This document shows, one piece after another, positions 410 to 14,352 of a stretch of 64,000 nucleotides of DNA. The DNA comes from Wielerella bovis. Its GTDB lineage: Bacteria > Pseudomonadota > Gammaproteobacteria > Burkholderiales > Neisseriaceae. Position 1 is the first letter of the stretch, and each line of letters begins with the position of its first letter. Both the position numbers and the translations under genes were made by a program. Below the pieces are notes generated by a model. That model saw only the letters and a program-made list of their open reading frames with translations. It did no database searches and had not been told where the DNA came from. The stretch covers positions 558,001 to 622,000 of the forward strand of contig NZ_CP092361.1 in NCBI RefSeq assembly GCF_022354465.1. Reading direction: 5' to 3'.

Positions 410-1450
410 TTAACGTTTATTCACTTGGTCAAACACACCACCATCAGCAAAATACGTTTGCATAATATCGTCCCATGAACCAAATACATCATTAGCGCGG
501 AAAGTTTCCACTTGTGGGAAACGGTCATTGTGTTTGGCTAAAACTTCAGTTTTGCTTGGGCGCAGATAAAAATTTGCTGCTAGATTTTGTGCGTCATCCG
601 ACCACAAATAATCCAAATACGCTTTTGCCGCCTCTGTTGTGCCCTTCTTATCTGTAACCGATGTTACAACCGCCACAGGATTTTCGGCTGCAATCGTGTA
701 TTTTGGGTACACAATTTCAAACTTATCTGCACCAAATTGTTGCAAAATCACATGCGCCTCATTTTCAAATGTAATCAATACATCACCAATATTACGTTGT
801 GCAAATGTAGTTGTTGCACCACGTCCACCTGCCTCAAATACTTCCACATTTTTCAAGAATTTTTGTGCAAATGTCTTGGCGGCATCTTGATTATTTCCAT
901 TTTCTTTCAAAGCATTAGCATAGGCTGCTAAAAATGTATAACGTCCATTACCTGCTGTTTTGGGATTAGCAATGACTAATTTCATACCATCTTTGGCTAA
1001 ATCGTTCCAATCGTGAACACCTTTCGGATTGCCTTTGTGTACCAAAAACACCGTAATACTTGTAAACGGTACGGCATTATTAGCAAAAGATTTTTGCCAA
1101 TCTTCTGCAACTAATTGTTTCTTTTGTAATAATTCAATATCCGATGTTTGATTCATGGTAACCACGTCTGCCGTCAAACCATTGGCAACGGATAAGGCTT
1201 GTTTGCTAGAACCGCCATGTGATTGTTTGATGTCAATGCTGATATTCGGATTTTTAGCTTGATAATCCTTAATAAACAATGGATTAAAATCTTTGTAAAA
1301 ATCGCGCATCACGTCATAAGATACGTTGAGTAATTCAATTTTTGCGCCATTTTGTGCGGCAGATGTGCTGCTGGCTGCATTATTATTTTGACCGTCACAA
1401 GCAGTAAGTACGCTTGCCAATAGTAAACCGATTGCCCATTGTTTTAACAT
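410..1450 (-). CDS. sbp: Sulfate/thiosulfate ABC transporter substrate-binding lipoprotein
   Basis: A 346-residue protein that captures sulfate (or thiosulfate) outside the inner membrane and hands it to the CysTWA importer. The N-terminus MLKQWAIGLLLASVLTAC is a lipoprotein signal with a lipobox ending at Cys18, so the protein is probably membrane-tethered rather than freely periplasmic. The mature part has the CysP/Sbp family start (LLNVSYDVMRDFYKDFN) and the sulfate-binding loop QSHGGSSKQA at about residue 77. It is transcribed away from cysT, with the shared upstream region 1451-1830. A DUS hairpin terminates it. Confidence 0.93.
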   Translation of the reverse strand: MLKQWAIGLLLASVLTACDGQNNNAASSTSAAQNGAKIELLNVSYDVMRDFYKDFNPLFIKDYQAKNPNISIDIKQSHGGSSKQALSVANGLTADVVTMNQTSDIELLQKKQLVAEDWQKSFANNAVPFTSITVFLVHKGNPKGVHDWNDLAKDGMKLVIANPKTAGNGRYTFLAAYANALKENGNNQDAAKTFAQKFLKNVEVFEAGGRGATTTFAQRNIGDVLITFENEAHVILQQFGADKFEIVYPKYTIAAENPVAVVTSVTDKKGTTEAAKAYLDYLWSDDAQNLAANFYLRPSKTEVLAKHNDRFPQVETFRANDVFGSWDDIMQTYFADGGVFDQVNKR

Positions 1451-1830
1451 GATATTTCCTTATTGATATGTGAAAGAATGGCGAGATATTAAGGAATAAT
1501 GATATTTTTGGGAAAGAATTTACGGTTTTTTGATAAAGAATATGTGGTTATATGGTTTTCAGGCTACCTAAAAAATACATCAATCCACATTTTGATTGAA
1601 ATAATCAGGGAAAATTGATGGATATTGGATTATTTCAGGCAGCCTGAAAAACGGTTTATACAATTTTTGCATAAGGGAAATAAATTAGTATTCTTTGAAA
1701 GCGCATCAGCTTTTCGGTACATTGTACGTTTTAAATTTAGGGGAAGTTTTTTAACTTTGTTGCAGCTTAATGGGCTTTCAGGCTGCCTGAAACCTAATTC
1801 CCCAAAATAAAAAAATGGATTTTAAATAAT
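1451..1830. other. Divergent sbp/cysT intergenic region
   Basis: This 380-base stretch separates the divergent sbp and cysT starts and must carry both promoters. It holds uptake sequences or near-copies near 1559-1571, 1637-1649 and 1778-1792 and AT-rich DNA. No supported gene or clear operator is visible. Confidence 0.6.
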
Positions 1831-2649
1831 ATGTTACTCAAATCCCCTACCGTTTTACCTGCGTTTAAGTTGAGCTTTGGCATCAGCGTGTTTGCGCTGT
1901 CTCTGTTGGTGTTGCTGCCGTTTACCATGCTGTTGATTACCGTGCAGGGCATGGGTTTTGCCGCGTTTTGGCAAACGATTAGCGAACCGCGCACGCTGTT
2001 TGCCGTGTGGCTGACCTTGAAAACATCGCTGTTTGCCGCGCTGACCAATGTGGTGTTTGGCACGCTCACCGCGTGGGTGTTGGTGCGCTATGAATTTGCT
2101 GGCAAAAGCATAGTCAATGCTTTGGTGGATTTGCCGTTTGCGTTGCCCACAGCCGTAATGGGCGTGGCGTTGGCGACTTTGTACGCGCCCAATGGTTTGA
2201 TTGGGCAACTGTTTCCTTTCAAAATTGCGTTTACGCCCATTGGCATTTGGTTGGCGTTGGTGGTGGTGAGTTTGCCATTTGTGGTGCGTTCGGTGCAGCC
2301 CGTGTTGGCGGAATTGTCACCCGAATACGAAGAGGCAGCCGCCACATTGGGCGCAAACCGTTTGACCGTGTTTCGCCGCGTTTTGCTGCCTGAAATGTTG
2401 CCTGCTTTGGTAACAGGCGCAGGCATGGCGTTTGCCCGTGCGACTGGCGAGTACGGCTCGGTCATTTTCATTGCAGGCAATATTCCCATGGAATCGGAAA
2501 TTTTGCCTTTGATTATCGCGGGCAAATTTGAATTGTTTGACATTCAAGGTGCGAGTGCGGTGGCTTTATTTATGTTGATGATTTCGTTTGTGATTTTATT
2601 TGCATTGAATGTTTGGCAATGGCGTTTGAACAAAAGAATGAATCGATAA
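1831..2649 (+). CDS. cysT: Sulfate ABC transporter permease CysT (CysU)
   Basis: A 272-residue inner-membrane permease of the sulfate importer. Several hydrophobic spans are clear, and the binding-protein-dependent permease loop (EYEEAAATLGANRLTVFRRV followed by LP) that docks onto the ATPase lies at about residues 167-188. The start ATG at 1831 gives the usual family length (about 275 aa); the ribosome site is weak. It is followed by cysW after a 250-base spacer that contains an inverted pair of C-rich/G-rich palindromic repeats. Its partners are CysW, CysA and Sbp. Confidence 0.93.
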   Translation: MLLKSPTVLPAFKLSFGISVFALSLLVLLPFTMLLITVQGMGFAAFWQTISEPRTLFAVWLTLKTSLFAALTNVVFGTLTAWVLVRYEFAGKSIVNALVDLPFALPTAVMGVALATLYAPNGLIGQLFPFKIAFTPIGIWLALVVVSLPFVVRSVQPVLAELSPEYEEAAATLGANRLTVFRRVLLPEMLPALVTGAGMAFARATGEYGSVIFIAGNIPMESEILPLIIAGKFELFDIQGASAVALFMLMISFVILFALNVWQWRLNKRMNR

Positions 2650-2700
2650 AAATGTTTCAGGCAGCCTGAAAATATTTTTTGAAATAAGCAGCAATCTGTT

Positions 2701-2739
2701 CCCTCCCCCGTCTCAAACAGGGGAGGGCTAGGGTGGGGG
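2701..2739. repeat. Palindromic intergenic repeat, left copy
   Basis: A CCCTCCCCCGTCTC...GGGGAGGGCTAGGGTGGGGG unit. It is repeated in inverted orientation at 2781-2821, and the pair could form a long cruciform or RNA hairpin between cysT and cysW. Similar GGGGGAGGGTTAGGGTGGGGG repeats are common REP-like intergenic sequences in many proteobacteria. Confidence 0.75.
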
Positions 2740-2780
2740 AAATTGGGTGCTGTAAATGAATGTTGTTGAAAATCAAAGAG

Positions 2781-2821
2781 CCACCCCCACCCTAACCCTC
2801 CCCCGCCAGACGGGAGAGGGG
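2781..2821. repeat. Palindromic intergenic repeat, right (inverted) copy
   Basis: The inverted partner of the repeat at 2701-2739 (CCACCCCCACCCTAACCCTC followed by CCCCGCCAGACGGGAGAGGG). It lies upstream of the chosen cysW start and argues against the longer N-terminal frame starting at 2756, which would translate through the repeat and two uptake sequences. Confidence 0.75.
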
Positions 2822-2899
2822 ACAGGTTTCAGGCAGCCCACAGATTTTTATCGCACATTTTCAGGCAGCCTGAAAAAAATCAAAATTAGGAAAAATCCC

Positions 2900-3742
2900 A
2901 TGTCTCACAATCATTTAACCGAACCGCGCTGGTTGCGCTACACCTTAATTGGCACGACTTTGCTGTTTTTGGCAGCGATGTTGGTTGTGCCGTTGATTTC
3001 CGTGTTTTACTACGCGCTGGAACGCGGTTGGCAGCTTTATATTGATGCGCTGACCGAACCCGAAGCCTTGCACGCGCTGAAACTCACGTTGATTATTGCC
3101 GCTATTGTCGTGCCATTGAACGCGATTTTGGGCATCGCCTTGGCGTGGTTGCTGACACGCTTTGATTTTCGTGGCAAACAATTTTTGACCACGCTGCTGG
3201 ATTTGCCGTTTTCCGTGTCGCCTGTGGTGGCAGGTTTGATGTTTGTGCTGCTGTTTGGCGCGAACAGCACGATGGGTGGCTGGTTTGAATCGCACGGCAT
3301 ACAAATCGTCTTTGCCTTGCCGAGCATGATTTTGGCGACTTTATTTGTAACATTCCCCTTTGTTGCCCGAGAGTTAATCCCCCTGATGCAAGCACAAGGC
3401 GACAGCGAAGAGCAGGCAGCCTTAATTTTGGGTGCAAACGCATGGCAAATGTTTTGGCGCGTAACGCTGCCGAACATCAAATGGGCATTGCTGTATGGCA
3501 TCATTTTGACCAATGCACGGGCGATGGGCGAATTTGGCGCGGTGAGCATGGTGTCGGGACACATACGCGGTCAAACCAACACGCTGCCTTTGCAGGTGGA
3601 AATTTTGTACAATGAATACAATTTTGTGGGCGCATTTGCCTTGTCCAGTTTATTGGCGTTGTTGGCATTGCTGACTTTGTTGCTGCAAAACTTTTTGGAT
3701 TGGCGACAAGCCAAAGCATTGGCAGCCGCAGAGCGCGAATAA
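2900..3742 (+). CDS. cysW: Sulfate ABC transporter permease CysW
   Basis: The second inner-membrane permease of the sulfate importer, 280 residues from the ATG at 2900, close to the family length. The start has a TTAGGA site 6 bases upstream; the frame is open back to 2756, but that extension reads through repeats and is not CysW-like. The protein has multiple membrane spans, and the docking loop (EEQAALILGANAWQMFWRV and TLPNI) sits near residues 175-200. It pairs with CysT to form the channel driven by CysA. Confidence 0.93.
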   Translation: MSHNHLTEPRWLRYTLIGTTLLFLAAMLVVPLISVFYYALERGWQLYIDALTEPEALHALKLTLIIAAIVVPLNAILGIALAWLLTRFDFRGKQFLTTLLDLPFSVSPVVAGLMFVLLFGANSTMGGWFESHGIQIVFALPSMILATLFVTFPFVARELIPLMQAQGDSEEQAALILGANAWQMFWRVTLPNIKWALLYGIILTNARAMGEFGAVSMVSGHIRGQTNTLPLQVEILYNEYNFVGAFALSSLLALLALLTLLLQNFLDWRQAKALAAAERE

Positions 3743-3783
3743 TTTTCAGGCAGCCTGAAAACAATTACTTAAAGGGATAAATC

Positions 3784-4443
3784 ATGAAAACTTTACAAGA
3801 CTTGATTAATTTAGAAGAGCCAGCTTGGGAATGGATGCAGGAAGAATGGTTCAGCCAAGCCCGTAATCATTATGAAATTATTCCGAAAAATCAAATGCAA
3901 GCAGAAAAAGAATTGCTTGCCAATCAAGTTACCACACGTTCGCCTATGGGCGCGATGATTTATGAAACAGGCGGCATGTTCATTGATAACGGTTGGTTGC
4001 GGATTTTGGGTTCAGGTGGTGCCAAATTGAACAGAAGCATTAGCGAATGGAACAAAGGCAAAATTTTTGAGCAATTAGGCGACATACCTCCCTTTTTGTT
4101 GATTGCAGATGATGTGCTGGGCGGCTACTTTGCGATTAATGGCGGGGGATTGGGCGACAATTTGGGTCAGATTCATTATTTTTCGCCCGATTCATTGGCA
4201 TGGGAAGATTTGAATATCACTTACTCACACTTTCTTGAATGGGTATTAATGGGCAATTTGGAACAGTTTTACCAAAATCTGCGTTGGGAAAATTGGCAAG
4301 ACGATGTGAAACAATTAGACGGCAATCAAGTTTTTTCTTTCTTTCCATTCTTATCAAGCAAAGAAGGGAAAAATATCAATGAAATCAGCCGAAAAGTGAT
4401 TCCAATACAAGAACATTATTTTGCATTTGTATCATCAAATTAA
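3784..4443 (+). CDS. DUF2625 family protein
   Basis: A 219-residue cytoplasmic protein with the DUF2625 signature: an acidic start (LINLEEPAWEWMQEEW), then VTTRSPMGAMIYETGGMFID and GWLRILGSG at residues 56-85. The function of the family is unknown. A good ribosome site (AAGGGATAAATC) precedes the ATG. It sits between cysW and cysA with two other unrelated genes, so it is co-oriented with the sulfate operon but nothing in it suggests a transport role. Confidence 0.8.
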   Translation: MKTLQDLINLEEPAWEWMQEEWFSQARNHYEIIPKNQMQAEKELLANQVTTRSPMGAMIYETGGMFIDNGWLRILGSGGAKLNRSISEWNKGKIFEQLGDIPPFLLIADDVLGGYFAINGGGLGDNLGQIHYFSPDSLAWEDLNITYSHFLEWVLMGNLEQFYQNLRWENWQDDVKQLDGNQVFSFFPFLSSKEGKNINEISRKVIPIQEHYFAFVSSN

Positions 4444-4482
4444 TTTCGTTTCAGGCAGCCTGAAAAACCTAGAAGGAAAAAC

Positions 4483-5121
4483 ATGAAAGCAATCGTCATT
4501 GGCGCGACAGGTGCAACAGGCAAACATTTAACCGAACAGTTATTAAACCACCCAGCCTTTTCACAAGTAACGATTTTTGTGAGAAAACCCCTTGCCATTT
4601 CCCACGCCAAATTAACGGTTAAAGTGATAGATTTTGATGCGCCCGAAATTTGGGCGCAAGATGTACAAGGCGATGTGTTATTCAGTTGTTTGGGGACAAC
4701 TTTAAAACAAGCAGGCAGCAAAGAAAACCAATACAAAATAGACCACACATATCAATACCATTTTGCCAAAATCGCCAAAGAAAACGGCATACAACATTAC
4801 GTTTTGATTTCATCAGAAATGGCAAATGCCAATGCCTTAACATTTTATGCCCAACTCAAAGGCAAATTGGACAACGATGTATTGGCATTGAATTTTCCCA
4901 AAATCAGCATTTTCAGACCGCCTTTATTGGTGCGTGAAAACACAAACCGTTTTGCCGAGAAAATGGCGGAAAAATGTTTGATGTTTGCCAATCAACTGGG
5001 CTTGTTCCAATCGGCACGCCCCCTGCCCACACAAAAATTGGCTTATGCGATGATAAACGCGGTTATTCAAAATCAAACAGGAATTGTGAATAAACAAGCC
5101 ATTTGGGAATTGGCGAAATAA
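4483..5121 (+). CDS. NAD(P)H-binding atypical short-chain dehydrogenase-like protein
   Basis: A 212-residue Rossmann-fold protein. The N-terminal dinucleotide motif is GATGATG at residues 8-14. LFSCLGTTLKQAGS (about residues 67-80) and HYVLISSEMANA (about 105-116) match the TIP30/HTATIP2-like NAD(P)-binding group of atypical SDRs. The substrate cannot be read from sequence. AGAAGGAAAAAC before the ATG is a strong ribosome site. It is separated by DUS-containing spacers from its neighbours. Confidence 0.8.
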   Translation: MKAIVIGATGATGKHLTEQLLNHPAFSQVTIFVRKPLAISHAKLTVKVIDFDAPEIWAQDVQGDVLFSCLGTTLKQAGSKENQYKIDHTYQYHFAKIAKENGIQHYVLISSEMANANALTFYAQLKGKLDNDVLALNFPKISIFRPPLLVRENTNRFAEKMAEKCLMFANQLGLFQSARPLPTQKLAYAMINAVIQNQTGIVNKQAIWELAK

Positions 5122-5181
5122 AAATACTGCGTTTCAGGCAGCCTGAAAACCCTGACGAAACCAAAACGAGACCACATCAAA

Positions 5182-5571
5182 ATGAATCATGAAACAGCCA
5201 AAAATCAATTAAAACCTTTATTTCTGAATTATTTGCAGGAAATTAGTCAAGAGCCTTTTTCTGATGATATTCAAGCATGGTGGTTTGGATTGTATGAACC
5301 CTATGGGATTTATGTTTTGGGTTCAACAGAATTTGATGAACAAGATGAATACTTTGAATGGGCGTGTCCCAAAGATGATGATTTTTCCCCATCAGCCCAT
5401 GCACCCGATTTAACCATTTTATCAACATGGCATTGGGAAAATGTTTTCAAAATCATTCAAGAAATATTGACAGAATTATTCCATGAAAATCCCAATCTGG
5501 CTCTATTGCGTGTACCCAAAATTGGATTGGGATTTGATGATGGGGACGGAATATTGATACACAAACAGTAG
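5182..5571 (+). CDS. Hypothetical protein
   Basis: A 129-residue acidic protein without signal peptide or membrane span. It is rich in Trp, Asp and Glu (AWWFGLYEPYGIYVLGSTEF at about residues 32-51). I do not recognise the family; the size and composition resemble small proteins found with polymorphic-toxin immunity genes, but no toxin is nearby. It is the last of three unrelated genes between cysW and cysA. Confidence 0.7.
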   Translation: MNHETAKNQLKPLFLNYLQEISQEPFSDDIQAWWFGLYEPYGIYVLGSTEFDEQDEYFEWACPKDDDFSPSAHAPDLTILSTWHWENVFKIIQEILTELFHENPNLALLRVPKIGLGFDDGDGILIHKQ

Positions 5572-5660
5572 GGTATATCGCGTACCAAATCGTTATCCTA
5601 ATTTATTGCTTTTAAAATTTTTTTCAGGCAGCCTGAAAACAAAAATATGGAACACAAACA

Positions 5661-6743
5661 ATGTCTATCCAAATTAAAAACCTAAACAAACATTTCGGCA
5701 AATTCCATGCCTTAAAAGACATCAACCTGACCGCCGATTCAGGCAGCCTAACTGCATTATTAGGGCCCAGCGGTTGCGGCAAAACCACCCTATTACGCAT
5801 CATCGCAGGCTTGGAAACCGCCAGCGATGGACAAATTCTGTTTGACAATCAAGATGTTTCCCAAGTACCCGTGCGCGAACGTCAAGTCGGTTTCATGTTT
5901 CAACATTACGCGCTGTTCCGCCACATGAATGTTGCCGACAACATCGCCTTTGGTTTGGACGTCAAACCCCGCGCCACACGCCCCAGCAAAGAGCAAATCG
6001 CACAAAAAGTCAACGAATTGCTCAAATTGGTGCAACTGGAACACCTTGCCAAAGCCTTCCCCAGCCAATTATCGGGCGGACAACGCCAACGCATTGCGCT
6101 TGCCCGCGCTTTGGCAACCGAACCCAAATTATTGTTATTGGACGAACCCTTTGGTGCATTGGACGCAAAAGTCCGCAAAGAATTGCGCGCGTGGTTACGT
6201 CAAATTCAACAAGAATTGGGCATCACCACCATTTTGGTAACGCACGACCAAGAAGAAGCATTGGAAATGGCAGACCAAATTGTGATTATGAATCATGGTG
6301 TTGTAGAGCAAATTGGCACAGGCGACCATTTATATCACGCGCCCAAAAACGTGTTTGTAAACGAATTCTTGGGCGAAACCAACGCCTTTGAATTTGCCAA
6401 AATTGAACAAGGCGAATTACACATAGGCGGCTACCGCGAAACGCTGAATCCACGCCCCACAGAACGGCAAAATGTCATCGCCTATGTGCGCCCACACGAA
6501 TTGGTTTTGCACACCACGCAGCCTGAAAATGCAATTGGTGCAGCAGAAATCGTGCAAATTCATCATATTGGTGCGGTGGTTCGCGTGGCATTAAGGCTGC
6601 CTGAAACATCAAAATTGATTTGGTCAGCATTGTCGCCCGCACAATTCAAAGCGTTGAATGTGCAAACAGGCGATACCGTTTGGCTGTTACCGCAGCAAAC
6701 CAGCATTTTCAGGCTGCCTGAAATGGTGGAATATGTGATTTGA
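5661..6743 (+). CDS. cysA: Sulfate ABC transporter ATP-binding protein CysA
   Basis: The 360-residue ATPase of the sulfate importer. Visible are Walker A (GPSGCGKTT, residues 35-43), signature [15 protein letters not shown] (about 137-151), Walker [13 protein letters not shown] (about 158-169) and the switch histidine in LVTHDQEEA. The C-terminal third is the regulatory/TOBE part. It lies about 1.9 kb beyond cysW with three unrelated genes between, an unusual split. Its 3' part carries uptake-sequence cores inside the coding frame that encode TQPEN, RLPET and FRLPEM. Confidence 0.94.
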
Positions 6744-6992: not shown

Positions 6993-8516
6993 TTATGCTT
7001 CAACAGGAATAATCCCAATTTTCGCTTGCCATTGTTTCGGTGCAATCGCATGAACAGATTGACCGTTACTGTCCACTGCTACGGTAACAGGCATATCTTG
7101 CACGTCAAATTCATAAATCGCTTCCATGCCTAATTCTGGGAATGCCAATACTTTGGATGATTTAATCGCTTTGGCTACTAAATAAGCGGCGCCACCTGTT
7201 GCCATTAAATAAACAGCTTTGTTGTCGGCAATTGCTTCGCAAGTTGCTGCACCGCGTTCGGATTTACCAATCATGCCCAACAAACCAGTTTGTTCCAGCA
7301 TTTGACGAGTAAATTTATCCATGCGTGTCGCGGTTGTTGGACCTGCTGGCCCAACCACTTCATCACGAACTGGGTCAACTGGGCCAACGTAATAAATGAT
7401 GCGATTAGTGAAATCCACTGGCAATTTTTCGCCTTTGTTCAACATATCAATCAAGCGTTTGTGTGCTGCATCACGACCCGTCAAAATTTTGCCATTGAGT
7501 AACAAAACATCGCCTGTTTTCCAAGTAGCCACTTCTTCTTTGGTTAAGTTATTGACATCAACACGTTTACCGTTTTCTGGGCTGTATGTAATGTCTGGCC
7601 AATCTTCCAAGCTTGGTGCTTGTAAATTTGCAGGACCACTGCCGTCCAATTCAAATTCAACGTGGCGCGTTGCTGCACAGTTTGGAATCATCGCAATCGG
7701 TTTACCTGCCGCATGAGTTGGATAATCCAAAATTTTCACGTCCAACACGGTTGTTAAACCACCCAAACCTTGAGCACCAATGCCCAAAGCGTTCACTTTC
7801 TCATAAATTTCCAAGCGCAATTTTTCAACGGTGTTCAATTCAGCACCCGATGCGGCTTTTTCTTGCAATTCGTGGATATCAATATGCCCCATCAAGCTTT
7901 CTTTTGCCATCATCATCGCTTTTTCGGGAGTTCCGCCAATACCGATGCCCAAAATTCCTGGTGGACACCAGCCAGCACCCATAGTTGGTACAGTTTTAAT
8001 CACCCAATCTACAATATTGTCAGATGGATTGAGCATTGCCAATTTGGATTTATTTTCTGAACCACCACCTTTTGCTGCACAAATCACTTCCACCTTGTCG
8101 CCTTCTACCACTTCATAATGCACGACCGCAGGTGTATTGTCTTTGGTGTTGATACGTTTGCCTGCAGGGTCAGCCAATACCGATGCGCGTAAAACATTAT
8201 CTGGATGTGTGTAAGCACGGCGAACACCTTCATTCACCATTTCTTGCACCGACAATTTCGCATTCCATTGTACATTCATACCAATTTTCAAAAATACCGT
8301 TGCAATCCCTGTATCTTGGCAAACTGGACGATGCCCTTCAGCACACATGCGGCTATTAACCAAAATTTGTGCCATTGCATCTTTGGCAGCAGGATTTTCT
8401 TCTTTCTCCCATGCTTTGGTCAGTGCTTGAATAAAATCTTTGGGATGATAGTAGCTGATAAATTGAAACGCATCAGCAATGCTTTGAATGAAATCTTCTT
8501 GTTTGATAATGGTCAT
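6993..8516 (-). CDS. Fumarate hydratase, class I (4Fe-4S, FumA/FumB type)
   Basis: A 507-residue fumarase that interconverts malate and fumarate. It has the class I features: Cys66 (RPVCQDTG), Cys184 (GWCPPGILGIGIGG) and Cys280 (PNCAATRH) as probable ligands of the oxygen-sensitive 4Fe-4S cluster. The ATG at 8516 follows AAAGGA; an upstream in-frame ATG at 8558 lacks support. It is divergent from the iron-sulfur/flavoprotein/NuoF-like/transporter genes and shares a promoter region that has an FNR-type box, so it probably supplies fumarate for reduction under low oxygen. Confidence 0.95.
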   Translation of the reverse strand: MTIIKQEDFIQSIADAFQFISYYHPKDFIQALTKAWEKEENPAAKDAMAQILVNSRMCAEGHRPVCQDTGIATVFLKIGMNVQWNAKLSVQEMVNEGVRRAYTHPDNVLRASVLADPAGKRINTKDNTPAVVHYEVVEGDKVEVICAAKGGGSENKSKLAMLNPSDNIVDWVIKTVPTMGAGWCPPGILGIGIGGTPEKAMMMAKESLMGHIDIHELQEKAASGAELNTVEKLRLEIYEKVNALGIGAQGLGGLTTVLDVKILDYPTHAAGKPIAMIPNCAATRHVEFELDGSGPANLQAPSLEDWPDITYSPENGKRVDVNNLTKEEVATWKTGDVLLLNGKILTGRDAAHKRLIDMLNKGEKLPVDFTNRIIYYVGPVDPVRDEVVGPAGPTTATRMDKFTRQMLEQTGLLGMIGKSERGAATCEAIADNKAVYLMATGGAAYLVAKAIKSSKVLAFPELGMEAIYEFDVQDMPVTVAVDSNGQSVHAIAPKQWQAKIGIIPVEA

Positions 8517-9035
8517 GATTTTGTGTCCTTTAAAAGGAAGTTTATGAAGAAAATGCAAATTTGTTCAATCTTTCAGGCAGCCTGAAAGATTACCACCAGT
8601 TATATTTTTAATTTATGTCAGAAAGTTACAGAATTTTAACATTTTTGTCATGCTAAAAAAGCGTTTATTTGACTTATATCAAACATCATTCATTTTCTGA
8701 ATTGCTAACAAATTTAAACAAATTACATCGGTGTCTATGCAAATTCCTTAAAAATTATAGGGATATAAAATTAAAACAAATACTTGTTTTTATTGTTCTT
8801 TGTTACAATTTGTTTAAATTTTAAGCAAAATATCAATAGGCGAAAATCAATCTTATTTAAAAATATTTAAATTCAATTAATTAACATAACTTAAAATAAA
8901 TAAACAAAATAAAACCTATTTGAGCTTTGTGAAAATATTTTGTATTATTCCTACAAAATTTATATTTATTATTCTGATAAAATCCTACTAAAAATAATCA
9001 TATTAAAACTCTTTAAATGAACAGGAACATCAACC
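8517..9035. other. AT-rich divergent promoter region, fumarase / fumarate-reductase genes
   Basis: A 519-base very AT-rich stretch between divergent starts. It holds a DUS at 8573-8588, a good FNR-type palindrome at 8669-8682 and long A/T runs of the kind bound by IHF or H-NS-like proteins. No coding capacity or RNA gene is seen. Confidence 0.7.
8669..8682. promoter_or_regulatory. Putative FNR box
   Basis: TTGACTTATATCAA matches the FNR consensus TTGAT-N4-ATCAA at 9 of 10 defined positions. It lies 153 bases before the fumarase start and 354 before the iron-sulfur gene, so it could serve either direction. Neither -10 spacing is convincing by eye. Confidence 0.65.
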
Positions 9036-9668
9036 ATGAGCGAAGAAAAATACAAATTAATCATTGATGGTTTGGAAGTGGAAGCCGATAAAAATGACAC
9101 CATTATTCAAGCCTATGCCAAAGCAGGTAAGGCGATTACTGCCAATGTGGGTTGCATGGGGCAGGGTGTATGTGGTTCTTGCCGCTGCTTGGTGCGTAAA
9201 GAAGGCGAACGTTCTGCTGAAACCAAATTAGGTTGCGAAACCAAAATTGAAGCAGGTATGCAAGTGAGCTTTTTGGATTACTTCTTGCCTACTCATGTGC
9301 ATCATTATGATATGAATAAAGTTGGCGATGGTTGGAATTGGTTAGAAGAAGTAGATGAAACATTCCCAGAAGCGAAAAATTGCCGTCATTGTGGTGGTTG
9401 TGATACTGCTTGTCCCAAAGGTTTGGAAGTACAAAATGGCGTGGCACAAGTGGTAATGGGCGATTTTTCTACCGCTTCTACTACATTTGATGAATGCGTT
9501 ATGTGTAATTTATGCACGTTGGCTTGCCCTGAGCATATTCGTCCGAATCATTTAGGTTTATTTGCTCGTCGCATGAAAGCAGCGCGTACTTTGCGTCCAA
9601 TTGATTTGATGCGCCGTTTGCAAGAAATTGATTCTGGCAAAGTTTCTGTAAACATTGATGCAATTTGA
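9036..9668 (+). CDS. Iron-sulfur subunit of a fumarate-reductase-like complex
   Basis: A 210-residue soluble electron carrier. The N-terminal ferredoxin fold has C40-x5-C46-x2-C49 and C67, the 2Fe-2S ligand pattern of SdhB/FrdB/TfrB. Two full C-x2-C-x2-C-x3-CP sets follow (C116/119/122/126 and C154/157/160/164), so it would hold two 4Fe-4S clusters, unlike classical SdhB, which has one 4Fe-4S and one 3Fe-4S. It probably carries electrons from the NuoF-like protein to the flavoprotein encoded 17 bases downstream. A GGAAC ribosome site precedes the ATG. No SdhC/SdhD anchor genes are present. Confidence 0.85.
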   Translation: MSEEKYKLIIDGLEVEADKNDTIIQAYAKAGKAITANVGCMGQGVCGSCRCLVRKEGERSAETKLGCETKIEAGMQVSFLDYFLPTHVHHYDMNKVGDGWNWLEEVDETFPEAKNCRHCGGCDTACPKGLEVQNGVAQVVMGDFSTASTTFDECVMCNLCTLACPEHIRPNHLGLFARRMKAARTLRPIDLMRRLQEIDSGKVSVNIDAI

Positions 9669-9684
9669 AAGGCAGCCTGAAAAA

Positions 9685-11313
9685 ATGAGTACACAACAAA
9701 AATTTACTGGTATTCCTTATGAAACTGCGCTGGCAAATTTGCGCGCGAAAACACCCGAATTAAACGGTACGCTGCCTGAAAAAGATGTTTTGCTGAAAAC
9801 CTTTCACCCTGACCATGCTGAAACAGCGCGTACCACTTTAACTGTGGGCGCAAATGCAGGTGATTTTTGTCATCCAGATTTAGCCAAATTATTAACAGCC
9901 AATCCTTTAATTGAAGATGCTGATTTGGCTGGCGCTGAAAATATGGTAACCGATGTGCTGGTTATCGGTGGTGGCGGTGCAGGTGCTGCCGCAGCTTTAA
10001 CAGCGGTACAAGAGGGCGCACAAGTCATCATGGCAAACAAATTGCGTATTGGCGACAGCAATACCGTTATGGCAGAAGGTGGTATGCAAGCTGCCGTTGG
10101 TGCAGATGATAGCCTACAACGCCACTTTGAGGATACGCTCAAAGGTGGGCATATGGCAGGCAAAAAAGAATTGGTTGCGCAAATGGTTACCGATGCACCT
10201 AGTGCTGTTCGCTGGTTGATTGGCTTGGGTATGAGTTTTGATACGCAAGGTGGAGACCCAAATGGCTTACTGGTACGCAAAAAAGCTGGTGGCACAACAG
10301 CACAACGCATTTTGTGTCATCGCGACTTTACAGGTTTGGAATTGATGAAAGTATTGCGTGAAGCCGTTGATATTGAGCCACGCATCACACAACTAAATCG
10401 CCACCCAGCCGTAGAGTTGCTATCTGATGCAGAAGGTCGTTGCGTAGGCGCGGTTTTATATGATTTGGAACGTCGCAAACTGATTACTGTCCATGCCAAA
10501 GCCGTTATTTTGGCAACAGGTGGTTCAGGTCGTTTGCATTTGCAAGGTTTTGCCACGTCCAACCATTATGGCGCAACAGCAGATGGTTTAGTTTTGGCAT
10601 ATCGCATGGGTGCGAAATTGCGTGATGTGGATAGTTTCCAATACCACCCAACTGGCGTTGCCCATCCACCACATTTGGCTGGCGCATTGATTTCTGAAGC
10701 TACACGTTCAGCAGGTACTAAATTGGTTAATGGTTTAGGCGAACGTTTTGTAGATGAATTACAACCACGCGATGTGGTTGCTGCTGCCATATTGCGCGAA
10801 GTTCGTGAAGGTCGTGGCGTAGAGCGCGACGGTCAAGTAGGCGTATTCTTGGATACACCGCGCATCATTGCTGAGCAGCCTGATATTTTGCAACGCTTGG
10901 TTACTTTGGGACACATTGCCCACAAATGCGGTGTCAATCCAGCCGAAGAGCCTTTAATCATTCATCCTACGTTGCATTACCAAAATGGTGGCATAGAAAT
11001 CAATGGTAATGGCGAAACTTGTGTACGCGGTTTATTTGCTGCTGGCGAAGTTACAGGTGGCATTCACGGACGCAACCGTTTGATGGGTAATGCTTTATTA
11101 GACATCATCAGTTTTGGTCGCCGTGCAGGTAAAGCTGCTGCACATGCAGAACCTGCACACAATAATCGTGGCGGTTTATCTCACGTTCACAATTTCCAAC
11201 GTGCGCTGCAAAAAGCTGGTGTGAAAAGTGAGGGCAAAGCTCCAGTGTTATACCCAAATTACGGTACATTTGATTGGAAAGAACACGCTGGTTTGGTTTG
11301 CAATATTGACTAA
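9685..11313 (+). CDS. Fumarate-reductase/succinate-dehydrogenase-type flavoprotein
   Basis: A 542-residue FAD protein with a ~88-residue N-terminal extension, then VLVIGGGGAGAAAA (residues 91-104). The four catalytic positions of FrdA are conserved: His321 (HPTG), Arg362 (PRD), His431 (HYQNGG) and Arg465 (HGRNRLMGN). Where FrdA/SdhA have the FAD-linking His of RSHT, this protein has DSNT (124-127), so FAD should be non-covalent. The ATG at 9685 is preceded by an uptake sequence that overlaps the ribosome-binding region. Fumarate reduction to succinate is the most likely reaction; L-aspartate oxidase is less likely because of the neighbours. Confidence 0.85.
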   Translation: MSTQQKFTGIPYETALANLRAKTPELNGTLPEKDVLLKTFHPDHAETARTTLTVGANAGDFCHPDLAKLLTANPLIEDADLAGAENMVTDVLVIGGGGAGAAAALTAVQEGAQVIMANKLRIGDSNTVMAEGGMQAAVGADDSLQRHFEDTLKGGHMAGKKELVAQMVTDAPSAVRWLIGLGMSFDTQGGDPNGLLVRKKAGGTTAQRILCHRDFTGLELMKVLREAVDIEPRITQLNRHPAVELLSDAEGRCVGAVLYDLERRKLITVHAKAVILATGGSGRLHLQGFATSNHYGATADGLVLAYRMGAKLRDVDSFQYHPTGVAHPPHLAGALISEATRSAGTKLVNGLGERFVDELQPRDVVAAAILREVREGRGVERDGQVGVFLDTPRIIAEQPDILQRLVTLGHIAHKCGVNPAEEPLIIHPTLHYQNGGIEINGNGETCVRGLFAAGEVTGGIHGRNRLMGNALLDIISFGRRAGKAAAHAEPAHNNRGGLSHVHNFQRALQKAGVKSEGKAPVLYPNYGTFDWKEHAGLVCNID

Positions 11314-11491
11314 AACAAATCTTTCAGGCTGCCTCTATTCATTATTCTTTCACAGAATTGCAATTTATTTTATTTAAAAATAAGCATAGGCAGCCTGAAA
11401 AATATCATATTTAAATTAAACTTTTTCAGGCTGCCTGAAAACATAAATGCAGCCTGAAAACGTAGCCAACACAAAATATGGAACAAAAATC

Positions 11492-12754
11492 ATGACCCAA
11501 TCCACAAACGAATTAAATCAAGTATTACTGCATCCCAGCCGTTTAGTCGGCGCTGATTTGAACGCATGGCTGGCAGTTGGTGGCGGCGAAGGTTTGCTCA
11601 ACGCATTGAGTGCGCCTGACAACATCGTCAAAGTTTTGGAAGAAGCGGGCTTATGCGGCATGGGTGGCGCAGGTTTTCCAACGCATAAAAAATGGTCAGC
11701 AATGGCAGAAAGCCCCAGCGAATCAGGCGACCGTTATGTTGTCTGCAATGCCAACGAAGACGAACCTGGTACATTCAAAGATTGTTTTTTATTAGAAAAA
11801 TCGCCTAACCAAGTCATTGAAGGTGCGTTAATTGCTGCCGTGTACACGCGTGCAAATAATGTGATTTTGTATATCAATCCACATTTAACCGAAGCATTAG
11901 CCAATACACGCGCTGCGATTGCTTTGTGGCAACAACACGATTTATTCAAACGCATTGAAGCGCATTTGGGTAAAACATTGAATATTAAAGTAGTTGAATC
12001 GTCAGGTCGTTATATTGGTGGTGAAGAAACTGCGGTGGTTTCATGGTTAAACGGCGGTTTCCCTTTCCCACAACGCAAACCACCCTTCCCATTCCAAAAA
12101 GGCGTGGCAGGCGAACCAACTTTGCTGAACAACACCGAAACTTTGGCAAATATTCCGCACATTTTGCGTAATGGTGCAGCATGGTATCGCTCATTGGGTC
12201 GTGCCAATGGTGTGGGGACAAAATTGTATTCATTGTCTGGCGATGTCTTAAACCCAGGTTTATACGAATTACCCATGGGCATTACTTTGCGTGAATTGAT
12301 TGAGAATTACGGCGGCGGTATGTTGGAAGGTCGCTTATTCAAAGCTGTATTTATGGGTGGACCCTCAAACAATTTGCTGACTGCAAAAGATATGGATGTG
12401 CCATTGGACTTTATTTCTGCGCGTGAACGTGAATCAGGTTTGGGTACGGGCGCGATGATTGTGATTTCAGAAGGCACCAGCATTGTCCGCAAAACAGCCG
12501 AATACATTCAGTTTTTTGCCAATAATTCTTGTGGACAATGTCCGCCTTGCAAAGGTGGAACCTATCAGTTGGCACGTTTGGTTGAACGTGTGGACAATGG
12601 CATCAGCACACCTGACGATTTGCGTGCACTGCAAAACTTGGTAAACATTATGCCTGGTGCAGGGCGTTGTGGCTTGATTACAGGTGCAGCTACTGTGGTT
12701 GCCAGCTCCATGCGTACGTTCCCGATTGAATACGGTTTGCCAGAAAAAGAATAA
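11492..12754 (+). CDS. NuoF-like NADH dehydrogenase subunit
   Basis: A 420-residue homologue of the NADH-oxidising subunit of complex I. It keeps the NADH-binding GLCGMGGAGFPTHKKW (53-68), the FMN loop CNANEDEPGTFKD (85-97), YIGGEETA (174-181) and the 4Fe-4S ligands Cys347, Cys350, Cys353 and Cys393. No NuoE or other Nuo gene adjoins it. Its position after the iron-sulfur and flavoprotein genes suggests that it feeds NADH electrons into them. The start is the ATG at 11492 with GGAAC upstream; the frame back to 11447 begins in an uptake sequence. Confidence 0.88.
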   Translation: MTQSTNELNQVLLHPSRLVGADLNAWLAVGGGEGLLNALSAPDNIVKVLEEAGLCGMGGAGFPTHKKWSAMAESPSESGDRYVVCNANEDEPGTFKDCFLLEKSPNQVIEGALIAAVYTRANNVILYINPHLTEALANTRAAIALWQQHDLFKRIEAHLGKTLNIKVVESSGRYIGGEETAVVSWLNGGFPFPQRKPPFPFQKGVAGEPTLLNNTETLANIPHILRNGAAWYRSLGRANGVGTKLYSLSGDVLNPGLYELPMGITLRELIENYGGGMLEGRLFKAVFMGGPSNNLLTAKDMDVPLDFISARERESGLGTGAMIVISEGTSIVRKTAEYIQFFANNSCGQCPPCKGGTYQLARLVERVDNGISTPDDLRALQNLVNIMPGAGRCGLITGAATVVASSMRTFPIEYGLPEKE

Positions 12755-12870
12755 TCAGTATTTTGAGTATGATGATTTTTCAGGCTGCCTGAATATTTTT
12801 TATCTTATATTAAAAGGCAGCCTGAACATTACCCGATTTTTAACCAGAACTTCATTACGAGGTAGTTACA

Positions 12871-14352
12871 ATGGGCTTTAAGAAAGTTCCAGCAGCCATT
12901 GCATTAGCATTAACGCTAATCGTTTGGTTTATTCCTGCGCCAGAAGGCGTATCCGAAAATGCGTGGCATTTACTTGCTTTGTTTATTGGTATTATTGCAG
13001 GCATTATTGGCAAAGCCATGCCGATTGGTGCAATGGCAGTGTTGGCAATGACGATTGTTGCCTTGCTACAAGTTACGGTACCAGAACTAGATGCACAAGG
13101 TGCACCAATTAAAAATCCATCCGCACAAGCAGCACGCGATGCGTTAAGCAGCCTGAACAGCACTTTAATTTGGATGATTGGTATTGCCATCATGATTTCA
13201 CGCGGTTTGCTGAAAACAGGTTTAGGAACGCGCATTGGTTATTTATTTTTGTCTGTATTCGGTAGAAAAACCATTGGCGTAGCGTATAGTTTGGCATTGT
13301 GTGATTTGTTGATTGCGCCCGTAACTCCGTCCAATACGGCACGCGGTGGTGCGATTGTTCACCCAATCATGAAAGCCATTGCTGCCAGTTTTGATTCTGA
13401 CCCTGAAAAAGGTACACAAAACAAAATCGGTCGCTATTTATCGTTGGTAAACTACCATTCCAACATTATTTCATGTTTGATTTTTATTACCGCCACAGCT
13501 CCCAATCCATTGGTGGTAGATTTAATCGCCAAAGGCACCAATCAAGACATTCAGTTATCTTGGGGAACATGGTTTGTTGCAATGGTTGTACCAGGATTGG
13601 TGGCTATGGCAGTTATGCCCATCATTTTGTTTTTCTTGTATAAACCTGAAATTACCAGCACCCCAAATGCACCTGAAATGGCGCGTAGCAAATTAAAAGA
13701 AATGGGTGCAATGTCTATGCACGAAAAAATCATGTTGGGAGTATTTGCTATTTTATTGCTCTTGTGGGCAGGTATTCCAGATATGCTGTTTGGCATTAAA
13801 GTAGATGCCACCACAACCACTTTCTTGGGCTTGTCTTTATTATTAATCACAGGCGTGCTGACTTGGGATGATGTCCTGAAAGAAAAAGGGGCATGGGACA
13901 CGATTGTATGGTTTGCCGCTTTGGTTATGATGGCAACTTTCCTAAACAAATTAGGTTTGATTAAATGGTTCTCCGACATGATGGGAAGTGGCATTTCACA
14001 CATGGGATTAAGTTGGGTATGGGGCTGCGCCTTATTAACTTTGGTGTATATTTACTCACACTATATGTTCGCCAGCGGTACAGCACACGTTACTGCCATG
14101 TTAGGCGCATTTTATGCCGCAGGATTGGGATTGGGCGCACCACCTATGTTGTTCGCCTTAATTCTCGCAGCTTCAACAGGCATTATGATGTCTCTGACTC
14201 ACTACGCATCAGGTTCATCACCTGTCATTTATAATTCAGGCTACACCACTATGGGAGAATGGTGGATTGCAGGCTTTGTTATGAGTGCAGTAGAAATCCT
14301 GATTTTCGCCACCATCGGTTTAGCTTGGTGGAAAGCATTGGGTCATTGGTAA
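12871..14352 (+). CDS. DASS-family dicarboxylate/anion transporter (CitT/TtdT-like)
   Basis: A 493-residue inner-membrane carrier with many hydrophobic spans. It has the divalent-anion:sodium symporter family signatures: PVTPSNTARGGAIVHPIM (about 150-167) and, near the end, a second substrate loop THYASGSSPVIYNSGY (about 442-457). The start MGFKKVPAAIALALTLIVWF is like CitT/TtdT antiporters. In this context exchange of succinate for an incoming C4-dicarboxylate (malate, fumarate or tartrate) is the natural guess; substrate and mode cannot be read from the sequence. It is last in the operon, 116 bases after the NuoF-like gene, with uptake sequences between. Confidence 0.88.
   Translation: MGFKKVPAAIALALTLIVWFIPAPEGVSENAWHLLALFIGIIAGIIGKAMPIGAMAVLAMTIVALLQVTVPELDAQGAPIKNPSAQAARDALSSLNSTLIWMIGIAIMISRGLLKTGLGTRIGYLFLSVFGRKTIGVAYSLALCDLLIAPVTPSNTARGGAIVHPIMKAIAASFDSDPEKGTQNKIGRYLSLVNYHSNIISCLIFITATAPNPLVVDLIAKGTNQDIQLSWGTWFVAMVVPGLVAMAVMPIILFFLYKPEITSTPNAPEMARSKLKEMGAMSMHEKIMLGVFAILLLLWAGIPDMLFGIKVDATTTTFLGLSLLLITGVLTWDDVLKEKGAWDTIVWFAALVMMATFLNKLGLIKWFSDMMGSGISHMGLSWVWGCALLTLVYIYSHYMFASGTAHVTAMLGAFYAAGLGLGAPPMLFALILAASTGIMMSLTHYASGSSPVIYNSGYTTMGEWWIAGFVMSAVEILIFATIGLAWWKALGHW

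Follow-up and report, generated by a model that had tools for sequence, protein, structure and literature searches.

A candidate soluble NADH:fumarate oxidoreductase encoded by a string of three genes in Wielerella bovis

Fumarate reduction in the Proteobacteria has mostly been viewed as a membrane-bound, quinol-linked process. Soluble enzymes are also known; they include the thiol:fumarate reductase TfrAB of methanogens, as well as the single-chain NADH:fumarate reductases of Klebsiella and trypanosomes and FCc3/Osm1, which hold FAD non-covalently and either consist of one polypeptide or use other donors. Hydrogenobacter thermophilus TK-6 is reported (Miura et al., 2008, J Bacteriol 190:7170) to use a soluble NADH-dependent fumarate reductase with an FrdA-type catalytic subunit in the reductive tricarboxylic acid (TCA) cycle, an enzyme reportedly built of five subunits encoded by scattered genes. 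Here, we describe a locus within a stretch of 64,000 nucleotides (the window) from the Neisseriaceae species Wielerella bovis (RefSeq assembly GCF_022354465.1, contig NZ_CP092361.1, positions 558,001 to 622,000). Three co-directional genes at positions 9036-12754 of the window encode an iron-sulfur (Fe-S) protein, an FrdA-like flavoprotein, and a NuoF-like subunit (together, the trio or module); a gene for a carrier of the DASS family comes next, and a fumarase gene lies divergently on the other side (Table 1). Judged from sequence, the trio would constitute a soluble NADH:fumarate oxidoreductase, a reading to which we assign a probability of roughly three in four.

With soluble, NADH-driven fumarate reduction already known from H. 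thermophilus, what would be new here is the three-gene subunit set. By its reported properties, the Hydrogenobacter enzyme agrees with the module as read here in its solubility, its NADH donor and its FrdA-type catalytic subunit, and differs in having five subunits and scattered genes instead of three genes in one string. Complex II (FrdABCD/SdhABCD) shares with the module the flavoprotein fold and dicarboxylate pocket together with an Fe-S protein that carries a 2Fe-2S and two further clusters; unlike complex II, the module has no anchors in its string, no SdhB-type protein, no histidine for covalent FAD attachment and no C-terminal helical domain, and it possesses an additional NuoF-like subunit. 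TfrAB is brought to mind by TfrA being the best NCBIfam profile of the flavoprotein, but the score was 335 bits with a cut-off of 718, and a Pfam domain scan of the Fe-S protein found no HdrB-like CCG domain. HydAB and NAD-linked formate dehydrogenases likewise join an NADH/FMN/4Fe-4S subunit to a separate catalytic subunit via Fe-S clusters; in the module, that partner is a fumarate-reductase-type flavoprotein and not a hydrogenase or molybdo-enzyme, and there is no NuoE-like gene in the string. The separate NADH, Fe-S, and FAD subunits distinguish the module from the single-chain enzymes and FCc3/Osm1. No paper describing the three-gene make-up was encountered in titles and abstract openings among the matches listed, which is a weak negative.

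A preliminary description of this DNA had named five genes, and each was located where expected in the list of open reading frames (ORFs) and by domain profiles. The flavoprotein contains an FAD_binding_2 domain, while Succ_DH_flav_C, the C-terminal helical domain of succinate dehydrogenase (SDH), was not found by Pfam; an N-terminal extension of ~85-90 amino acids is common to it and its orthologues. The TfrA, NadB, and SdhA/FrdA profiles of NCBIfam matched best, the best 25 matches listed all remaining below their own cut-offs (288 bits for the NadB profile TIGR00551, cut-off 453). Foldseek placed its AlphaFold model (mean pLDDT 85) closest to FrdA of the Escherichia coli quinol:fumarate reductase (1kf6; E 1.9e-34, TM 0.67). 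On a tree of 30 rows, 16 module flavoproteins formed one group with a support of 100/100, and by this comparison the flavoprotein belongs to a group distinct from the included SdhA, FrdA, and NadB proteins. The tree, for which the tool gave a long-branch warning, held the protein of the window, 15 module flavoproteins from the 71 loci introduced below and one SDH-type row from Thiomargarita; its rows did not extend to TfrA, flavocytochrome c, or urocanate reductase, and four of 14 relatives (L007, L013, L014, and L016) had been dropped with their ORF pattern unmatched.

The preliminary description had proposed fumarate as the substrate, which is supported by the kept pocket, by an Asn at the site where a His would bind FAD covalently, and by neighbouring genes of C4-dicarboxylate metabolism. 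Counted from the TTG at 9655, H331, R372, H441, and R475 align with H233, R288, H356, and R391 of E. coli FrdA (Met counted); the His321, Arg362, His431, and Arg465 noted earlier are these same residues, correctly numbered from the ATG at 9685. Counts were made on the window and 68 loci, leaving out L064 (short), L089 (an SDH-type protein), and L096 (none); the proteins of L039 and L058 were kept with an X at a stop taken to lie in an over-long start. H331, E348, R351, R372, H441, Y442, and R475 (FrdA H233, E246, R249, R288, H356, Y357, and R391) are kept in 68 of the 69 flavoproteins, and T333 and S347 (FrdA T235 and T245) in 67 each. The disrupted copy of L054 deviates at each of eight rechecked positions, L087 has Ser at 333, and L094 has Thr at 347, as does FrdA. 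A His that binds the second carboxylate separates fumarate reductases from urocanate reductase, according to PMC7921117, and the residue named there corresponds to H331 of the window flavoprotein. The position of the covalent-FAD His is occupied by Asn in all 69 flavoproteins and in three further loci. In PMC9557727, enzymes whose FAD is non-covalent (soluble fumarate reductases and aspartate oxidase) are described as reducing fumarate while being unable to oxidise succinate, and hence the Asn would favour fumarate reduction over succinate oxidation.

The Fe-S protein had been termed SdhB/TfrB-like. Its one 2Fe-2S motif (C40, C46, C49, and C67) and its two complete 4Fe-4S motifs of the form CxxCxxCxxxC (C116-C126 and C154-C164) were recovered, but the SdhB label did not hold by profile (19 bits for TIGR00384, cut-off 88); the resemblance to SdhB is one of cluster order only, both later clusters having four-cysteine motifs. 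The twelve cluster cysteines are kept in all 70 Fe-S proteins counted (the window and 69 loci, L093 and L096 being too short), save C40, which is kept in 69. Its AlphaFold model was fair (mean pLDDT 86), and the 50 Foldseek matches listed were no more than partial, to pieces of RNF, Nfn, complex I proteins, and the like, with low TM-scores (TMq 0.22-0.37). As had been noted for the NuoF-like subunit, the NADH, FMN, and 4Fe-4S motifs are present, both as domains and as motifs (the N3 4Fe-4S site, NEDEPGTFKD, and SCGQC), and SCGQCxxC occurs in 67 of 69 NuoF-like proteins. It scored 363 bits with the NuoF profile TIGR01959 (cut-off 559) and is 38% identical over 408 amino acids to part of the complex I region of the same genome; the existence of that separate region elsewhere in the genome ruled out a stray NuoF of complex I. 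The earlier remark that FrdCD anchors are absent agrees with what was found: no membrane anchor of a fumarate reductase is encoded in the gene string, the only place inspected for SdhC/FrdC-type genes, and the hydropathy windows of all three enzyme subunits stay within 1.6, with no stretch resembling a membrane helix.

With these features, NADH would give hydride to the FMN of the NuoF-like subunit, from which electrons would pass singly through its 4Fe-4S cluster to the two 4Fe-4S and one 2Fe-2S clusters of the small protein, and on to the non-covalent FAD of the FrdA-like subunit; there, fumarate would be reduced to succinate with Arg372 as the probable proton donor. The fumarase would feed the reductase by converting malate to fumarate, and the DASS carrier may swap succinate for an incoming dicarboxylate. 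The C4 arm of metabolism would run backwards only, as a sink for NADH, probably at low oxygen under FNR. Complex formation, the order of electron transfer, the donor and acceptor, direction, mode of transport and regulation are all matters that we infer, and further subunits may be encoded elsewhere. The redox potential of NADH is -320 mV. With fumarate at +30 mV, as given in PMC3578206, the drop of ~0.35 V from NADH to fumarate would render the reaction irreversible in practice.

A scan of one genome per species across 84,980 species, with the Fe-S protein of the window as query, returned 71 loci; as the scan was seeded from six short peptides, only close relatives were found. The trio was present outside the strain, in the same order and on the same strand in 68 of the 71 loci and across several classes, which speaks against chance and ruled out an arrangement peculiar to the strain. 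Three loci depart from this pattern: L096 is a fragment, L089 lies on a Thiomargarita contig, and L094, on a Nitrospirota contig, has just the first two genes; damaged or cut copies among the 68 are L054, L064, and L093. The trio genes touch or overlap in many loci, with start sites chosen by us. Hosts include Neisseria, Alysiella, Cupriavidus, Paraburkholderia, Caballeronia, Variovorax, Roseomonas, Azorhizobium, Azospirillum, Wohlfahrtiimonas, and Myxococcales, and the module, first considered in the context of the Neisseriaceae, is not confined to that family. The locus counts are not independent because many hosts are close kin. In the Nitrospirota locus (L094:6917-10009), two genes for Fe-S-protein-like products precede that of the flavoprotein and no NuoF-like match was seen; it is perhaps a version with another electron donor.

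The genome of the window is a single contig of 2.29 Mb, rated 100% complete. The module flavoprotein is its only full-length FAD_binding_2 protein, seven other matches being pieces of 32-70 positions, and profile searches of the genome found no other full-length protein of the SDH/fumarate reductase family, nor SdhB, the E1 component of 2-oxoglutarate dehydrogenase, or SucD. The flavinylation factor SdhE was not found in it either; SdhE is present in 68 of 71 good genomes of the family, and 2-oxoglutarate dehydrogenase in 69. The oxidative succinate half of the TCA cycle thus seems to have been lost in this genome, and, with SdhA/SdhB, 2-oxoglutarate dehydrogenase, and SucD all unfound, any succinate made would probably derive from the module and not be respired. 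Complex I (NuoE) and an FNR gene are present. Five relatives encode, besides the module flavoprotein, another match that is as long as SdhA.

The order fumarase, trio, DASS carrier recurs in Neisseria loci. A DASS gene accompanies the trio in nine of the 10 Neisseriaceae loci, the contig ending just after the trio in the tenth (Alysiella), and a fumarase gene in nine of 10 as well, at a distance of 4.5 kb in Alysiella; the stretch of the remaining locus, L033, starts only a short way from the trio. Outside the Neisseriaceae, a DASS match occurs within the fetched stretch in 30 of 58 trio loci, counting one weak match (28%) and a partial one at a contig edge 6.6 kb away (L064). Fourteen of these 30 encode, directly divergent from the Fe-S gene, a full-length relative of the E. 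coli citrate:succinate antiporter CitT (53-55%) and tartrate:succinate antiporter TtdT (52-54%); partial relatives of CitT/TtdT occur in L045 and L062. Other organic-acid genes near the trio are those for an AspT-type antiporter and malic enzyme in Azorhizobium (where the opposite flank encodes a transporter, a sigma-54 response regulator, and a kinase), the DctA carrier in a Cupriavidus, and L-lactate dehydrogenase in Azospirillum and, below the cut-off, Roseomonas GC11. Two genomes join the trio to korA and korB, the genes of a 2-oxoacid:ferredoxin oxidoreductase, as korA-korB-trio in G071 (its korB recognised by sequence and not by profile) and as mdh-korA-korB-trio in G097, where a malate dehydrogenase gene lies upstream on the same strand. 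Their trios are 42-57% identical to that of the window and keep the pocket residues, the Asn, an Ala at the position aligned with Glu121 of NadB (discussed below), and the non-bifurcating residues of the NuoF-like subunit. Strings of this kind were recorded at L115:6717-14350 and L114:5404-11617, in two genera that belong to the same order; one string includes mdh, and a [NiFe] hydrogenase is encoded near the other. Neighbours on GC-rich contigs, prone to antisense shadow ORFs, were re-called with a codon-position filter, some shadows remaining.

The fumarase of the window is of class I, as was first thought: TIGR00722 and TIGR00723 (TtdA/FumA and FumA-C/TtdB) both match above cut-off, alongside the Fumerase and Fumerase_C domains, and the fumarate hydratase model PRK06246 falls just short (266 bits, cut-off 276). 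Its counterparts in other Neisseriaceae are 86-89% identical. A tartrate dehydratase was rejected, the identity to TtdA/TtdB being 25-31% and the tartrate profiles staying far under cut-off. Assignment of the carrier to the DASS family was likewise upheld (TIGR00785, 355 bits, cut-off 199). Its solved relatives are the chloroplast dicarboxylate transporters 1 and 2.1, which are exchangers, and 6wtw/6wu1, named as a sodium-coupled symporter. With 32-34% identity, it is about equally far from E. coli YbhI (the best), CitT, and TtdT. The exchange of succinate proposed earlier for this carrier finds backing in the CitT/TtdT-type relatives beside the module in other genera, but not in its own similarity, which is as near to YbhI, or in the solved relative named a symporter; succinate export by the carrier is plausible.

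More broadly, the module could represent a separate class of soluble NADH:fumarate reductase that serves as a building block of reductive TCA metabolism, linked to korAB in two betaproteobacterial genera (and to mdh in one), accompanied in other genera by relatives of succinate antiporters and, in the Neisseriaceae lineage of the window, having outlived SDH, 2-oxoglutarate dehydrogenase, and SucD, so that a respiratory family would include a member in which C4 metabolism runs in reverse only and without quinone; we hold the chances for and against this wider proposal to be even. If the reading as NADH:fumarate oxidoreductase is true, the trio would be a compact cytoplasmic NADH sink and succinate producer, useful in metabolic engineering, and would help to explain a Neisseriaceae genome without SDH and 2-oxoglutarate dehydrogenase. 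In relatives with korAB, it becomes a candidate for the fumarate step of reductive TCA segments and, if the substrate of KorAB is 2-oxoglutarate, the korA-korB-trio strings would encode steps of such a segment. As no other SDH/fumarate reductase proteins were found, W. bovis would offer a clean genetic test.

Several observations weigh against reading the trio as an NADH:fumarate oxidoreductase. The Phe of FrdA (E. coli residue 117, Met counted) and SdhA that aligns with Glu121 of NadB is replaced in all 69 module flavoproteins, by Pro in 46, Ala in 20, Val in two, and Gly in one, and the substrate may consequently be larger than fumarate. The Fe-S gene is rare and patchy, being detected in 10 of 300 sampled genomes of the order (E 1e-40 or better), and many of the hosts (Cupriavidus, Paraburkholderia, and Variovorax) are mainly aerobes, which is odd for a fermentative enzyme. 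No DASS match was seen in 28 of the 58 trio loci outside the Neisseriaceae, and in the 22 of these whose neighbours were scanned (all but L053, L056, L060, L063, L080, and L093), an evident organic-acid gene was found only in L035, L037, and L074; the scanned neighbours of many Burkholderiales and Myxococcales loci have no evident link. Finally, YbhI is at least as near to the carrier of the window as the succinate antiporters are.

The replaced Phe is one reason to consider that the same machine might use NADH to reduce a larger unsaturated di- or tricarboxylate, such as mesaconate or aconitate, bound at the shared carboxylate sites. The distance of the flavoprotein group from the references used would fit such a substrate, as would a gene of the citrate:cation symporter family (below cut-off) near the module in Azospirillum; YbhI, named as a putative tricarboxylate transporter, was moreover the nearest to the window carrier of the three E. 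coli proteins compared, which lends this alternative slightly more weight. We nonetheless consider it unlikely, given that the other fumarate residues are kept and that fumarase, malic enzyme, malate dehydrogenase, and relatives of succinate antiporters are the neighbours. Replacement of L-aspartate oxidase (NadB) in NAD synthesis was entertained in view of the NadB profiles scoring about as well as those of SdhA/FrdA, and of no other NadB-like protein being found in the genome of the window. However, Glu121 of E. coli NadB, a mark of L-aspartate oxidases, has a Glu counterpart in none of the 69 flavoproteins, and NadA was not found in the genome, on which two grounds this exceedingly improbable role was ruled out; in addition, G027 and G030 each encode, apart from the module, another match that is as long as NadB.

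NuoF-type subunits are bidirectional in some formate dehydrogenases and hydrogenases. This, together with the Syntrophus HydAB also reducing NAD+ (PMC7311640), would allow for an NAD-reducing dehydrogenase that oxidises succinate or a related acid, but electrons would have to travel uphill by ~0.35 V from succinate to NAD+ (fumarate potential from PMC3578206) and oxidation of succinate is disfavoured by the Asn at the flavin-linking site, making such a direction very improbable. A fumarate reductase that bifurcates electrons, reducing ferredoxin as well and so supplying the adjacent 2-oxoacid:ferredoxin oxidoreductase, is suggested by the korA-korB genes in the same string in G071 and G097, and the energy gap between NADH and fumarate would pay for the ferredoxin reduced. 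Bifurcating beta subunits, as described in PMC7311640, carry Ala/Glu with Met, a Phe, and GGPSG, from which plain NADH-dependent ones differ; the NuoF-like proteins have instead Thr and Lys (68 of 69, one unreadable), Tyr (69 of 69), and GGPSN (69 of 69), which are plain non-bifurcating residues by that source, and the korAB-linked copies are alike. Bifurcation was set aside on these signature residues and is held to be highly unlikely, although signs drawn from hydrogenases and formate dehydrogenases are no proof against it. The reduction of fumarate with NADH by the trio thus remains the favoured reading.

Table 1. Features of the module and its flanks, in positions of the window.
Feature	Position	Strand	Remarks
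Class I fumarate hydratase	6993..8516	-	ORF to 8558; likely start MTIIKQ at 8516; divergent to module
Candidate FNR/CRP-type dyad TTGACTTATATCAA	8669..8682	.	Between fumarase and module; one mismatch to TTGATNNNNATCAA
Iron-sulfur protein	9036..9668	+	Pfam Fer2 and Fer4 dicluster
FrdA-fold flavoprotein, probable catalytic subunit	9685..11313	+	ATG at 9685; ORF can start at TTG 9655; FAD_binding_2
NuoF-like NADH/FMN/4Fe-4S subunit, putative point of electron entry	11492..12754	+	ORF can start at 11447; Complex1_51K, SLBB, NADH_4Fe-4S
DASS-family carrier, probably for dicarboxylates	12871..14352	+	TIGR00785 above cut-off

The region between the divergent genes holds the dyad TTGACTTATATCAA, located ~155 bases upstream of the fumarase start and 367 bases upstream of the Fe-S gene; it fits FNR control of either the fumarase or the module. 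When 11 Neisseriaceae regions, that of the window among them, are aligned, 10 share its half-sites TTGA/TCAA at the same place, with a spacer that varies; three of the sites have two mismatches to the E. coli consensus. The eleventh region, that of N. dentiae, has its site elsewhere, and Alysiella, outside the alignment, has one at a similar distance from the Fe-S gene. A role at low oxygen, as first suggested, gains some ground from the dyad and the FNR gene, but an FNR-like site also appeared in 90 of 1000 shuffles of the AT-rich window region, and the dyad ranked only 42nd of 970 alignment windows for conservation, behind other parts of the region.

A few further observations concern the surroundings of the module. 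A DUF3300 gene lies near it in 12 Burkholderiales loci (e.g., L061:936-2312 and L068:5412-6806; recognised by profile in two loci), and members of a second family, identified as DUF2950 by eye, are near it in 11 loci, often alongside the DUF3300 gene. In the window itself, genes resembling those of a sulfate/thiosulfate ABC transporter (binding protein, two permeases, and ATPase), judged by eye from ORF lists, occupy 410-6743, before the fumarase. The gap between the flavoprotein and NuoF-like genes (11314-11491) contains several 12-mers that resemble DNA-uptake sequences, of which AGGCAGCCTGAA has 90 copies in the window and AGGCTGCCTGAA has 23; in several Neisseria loci, the two genes touch.

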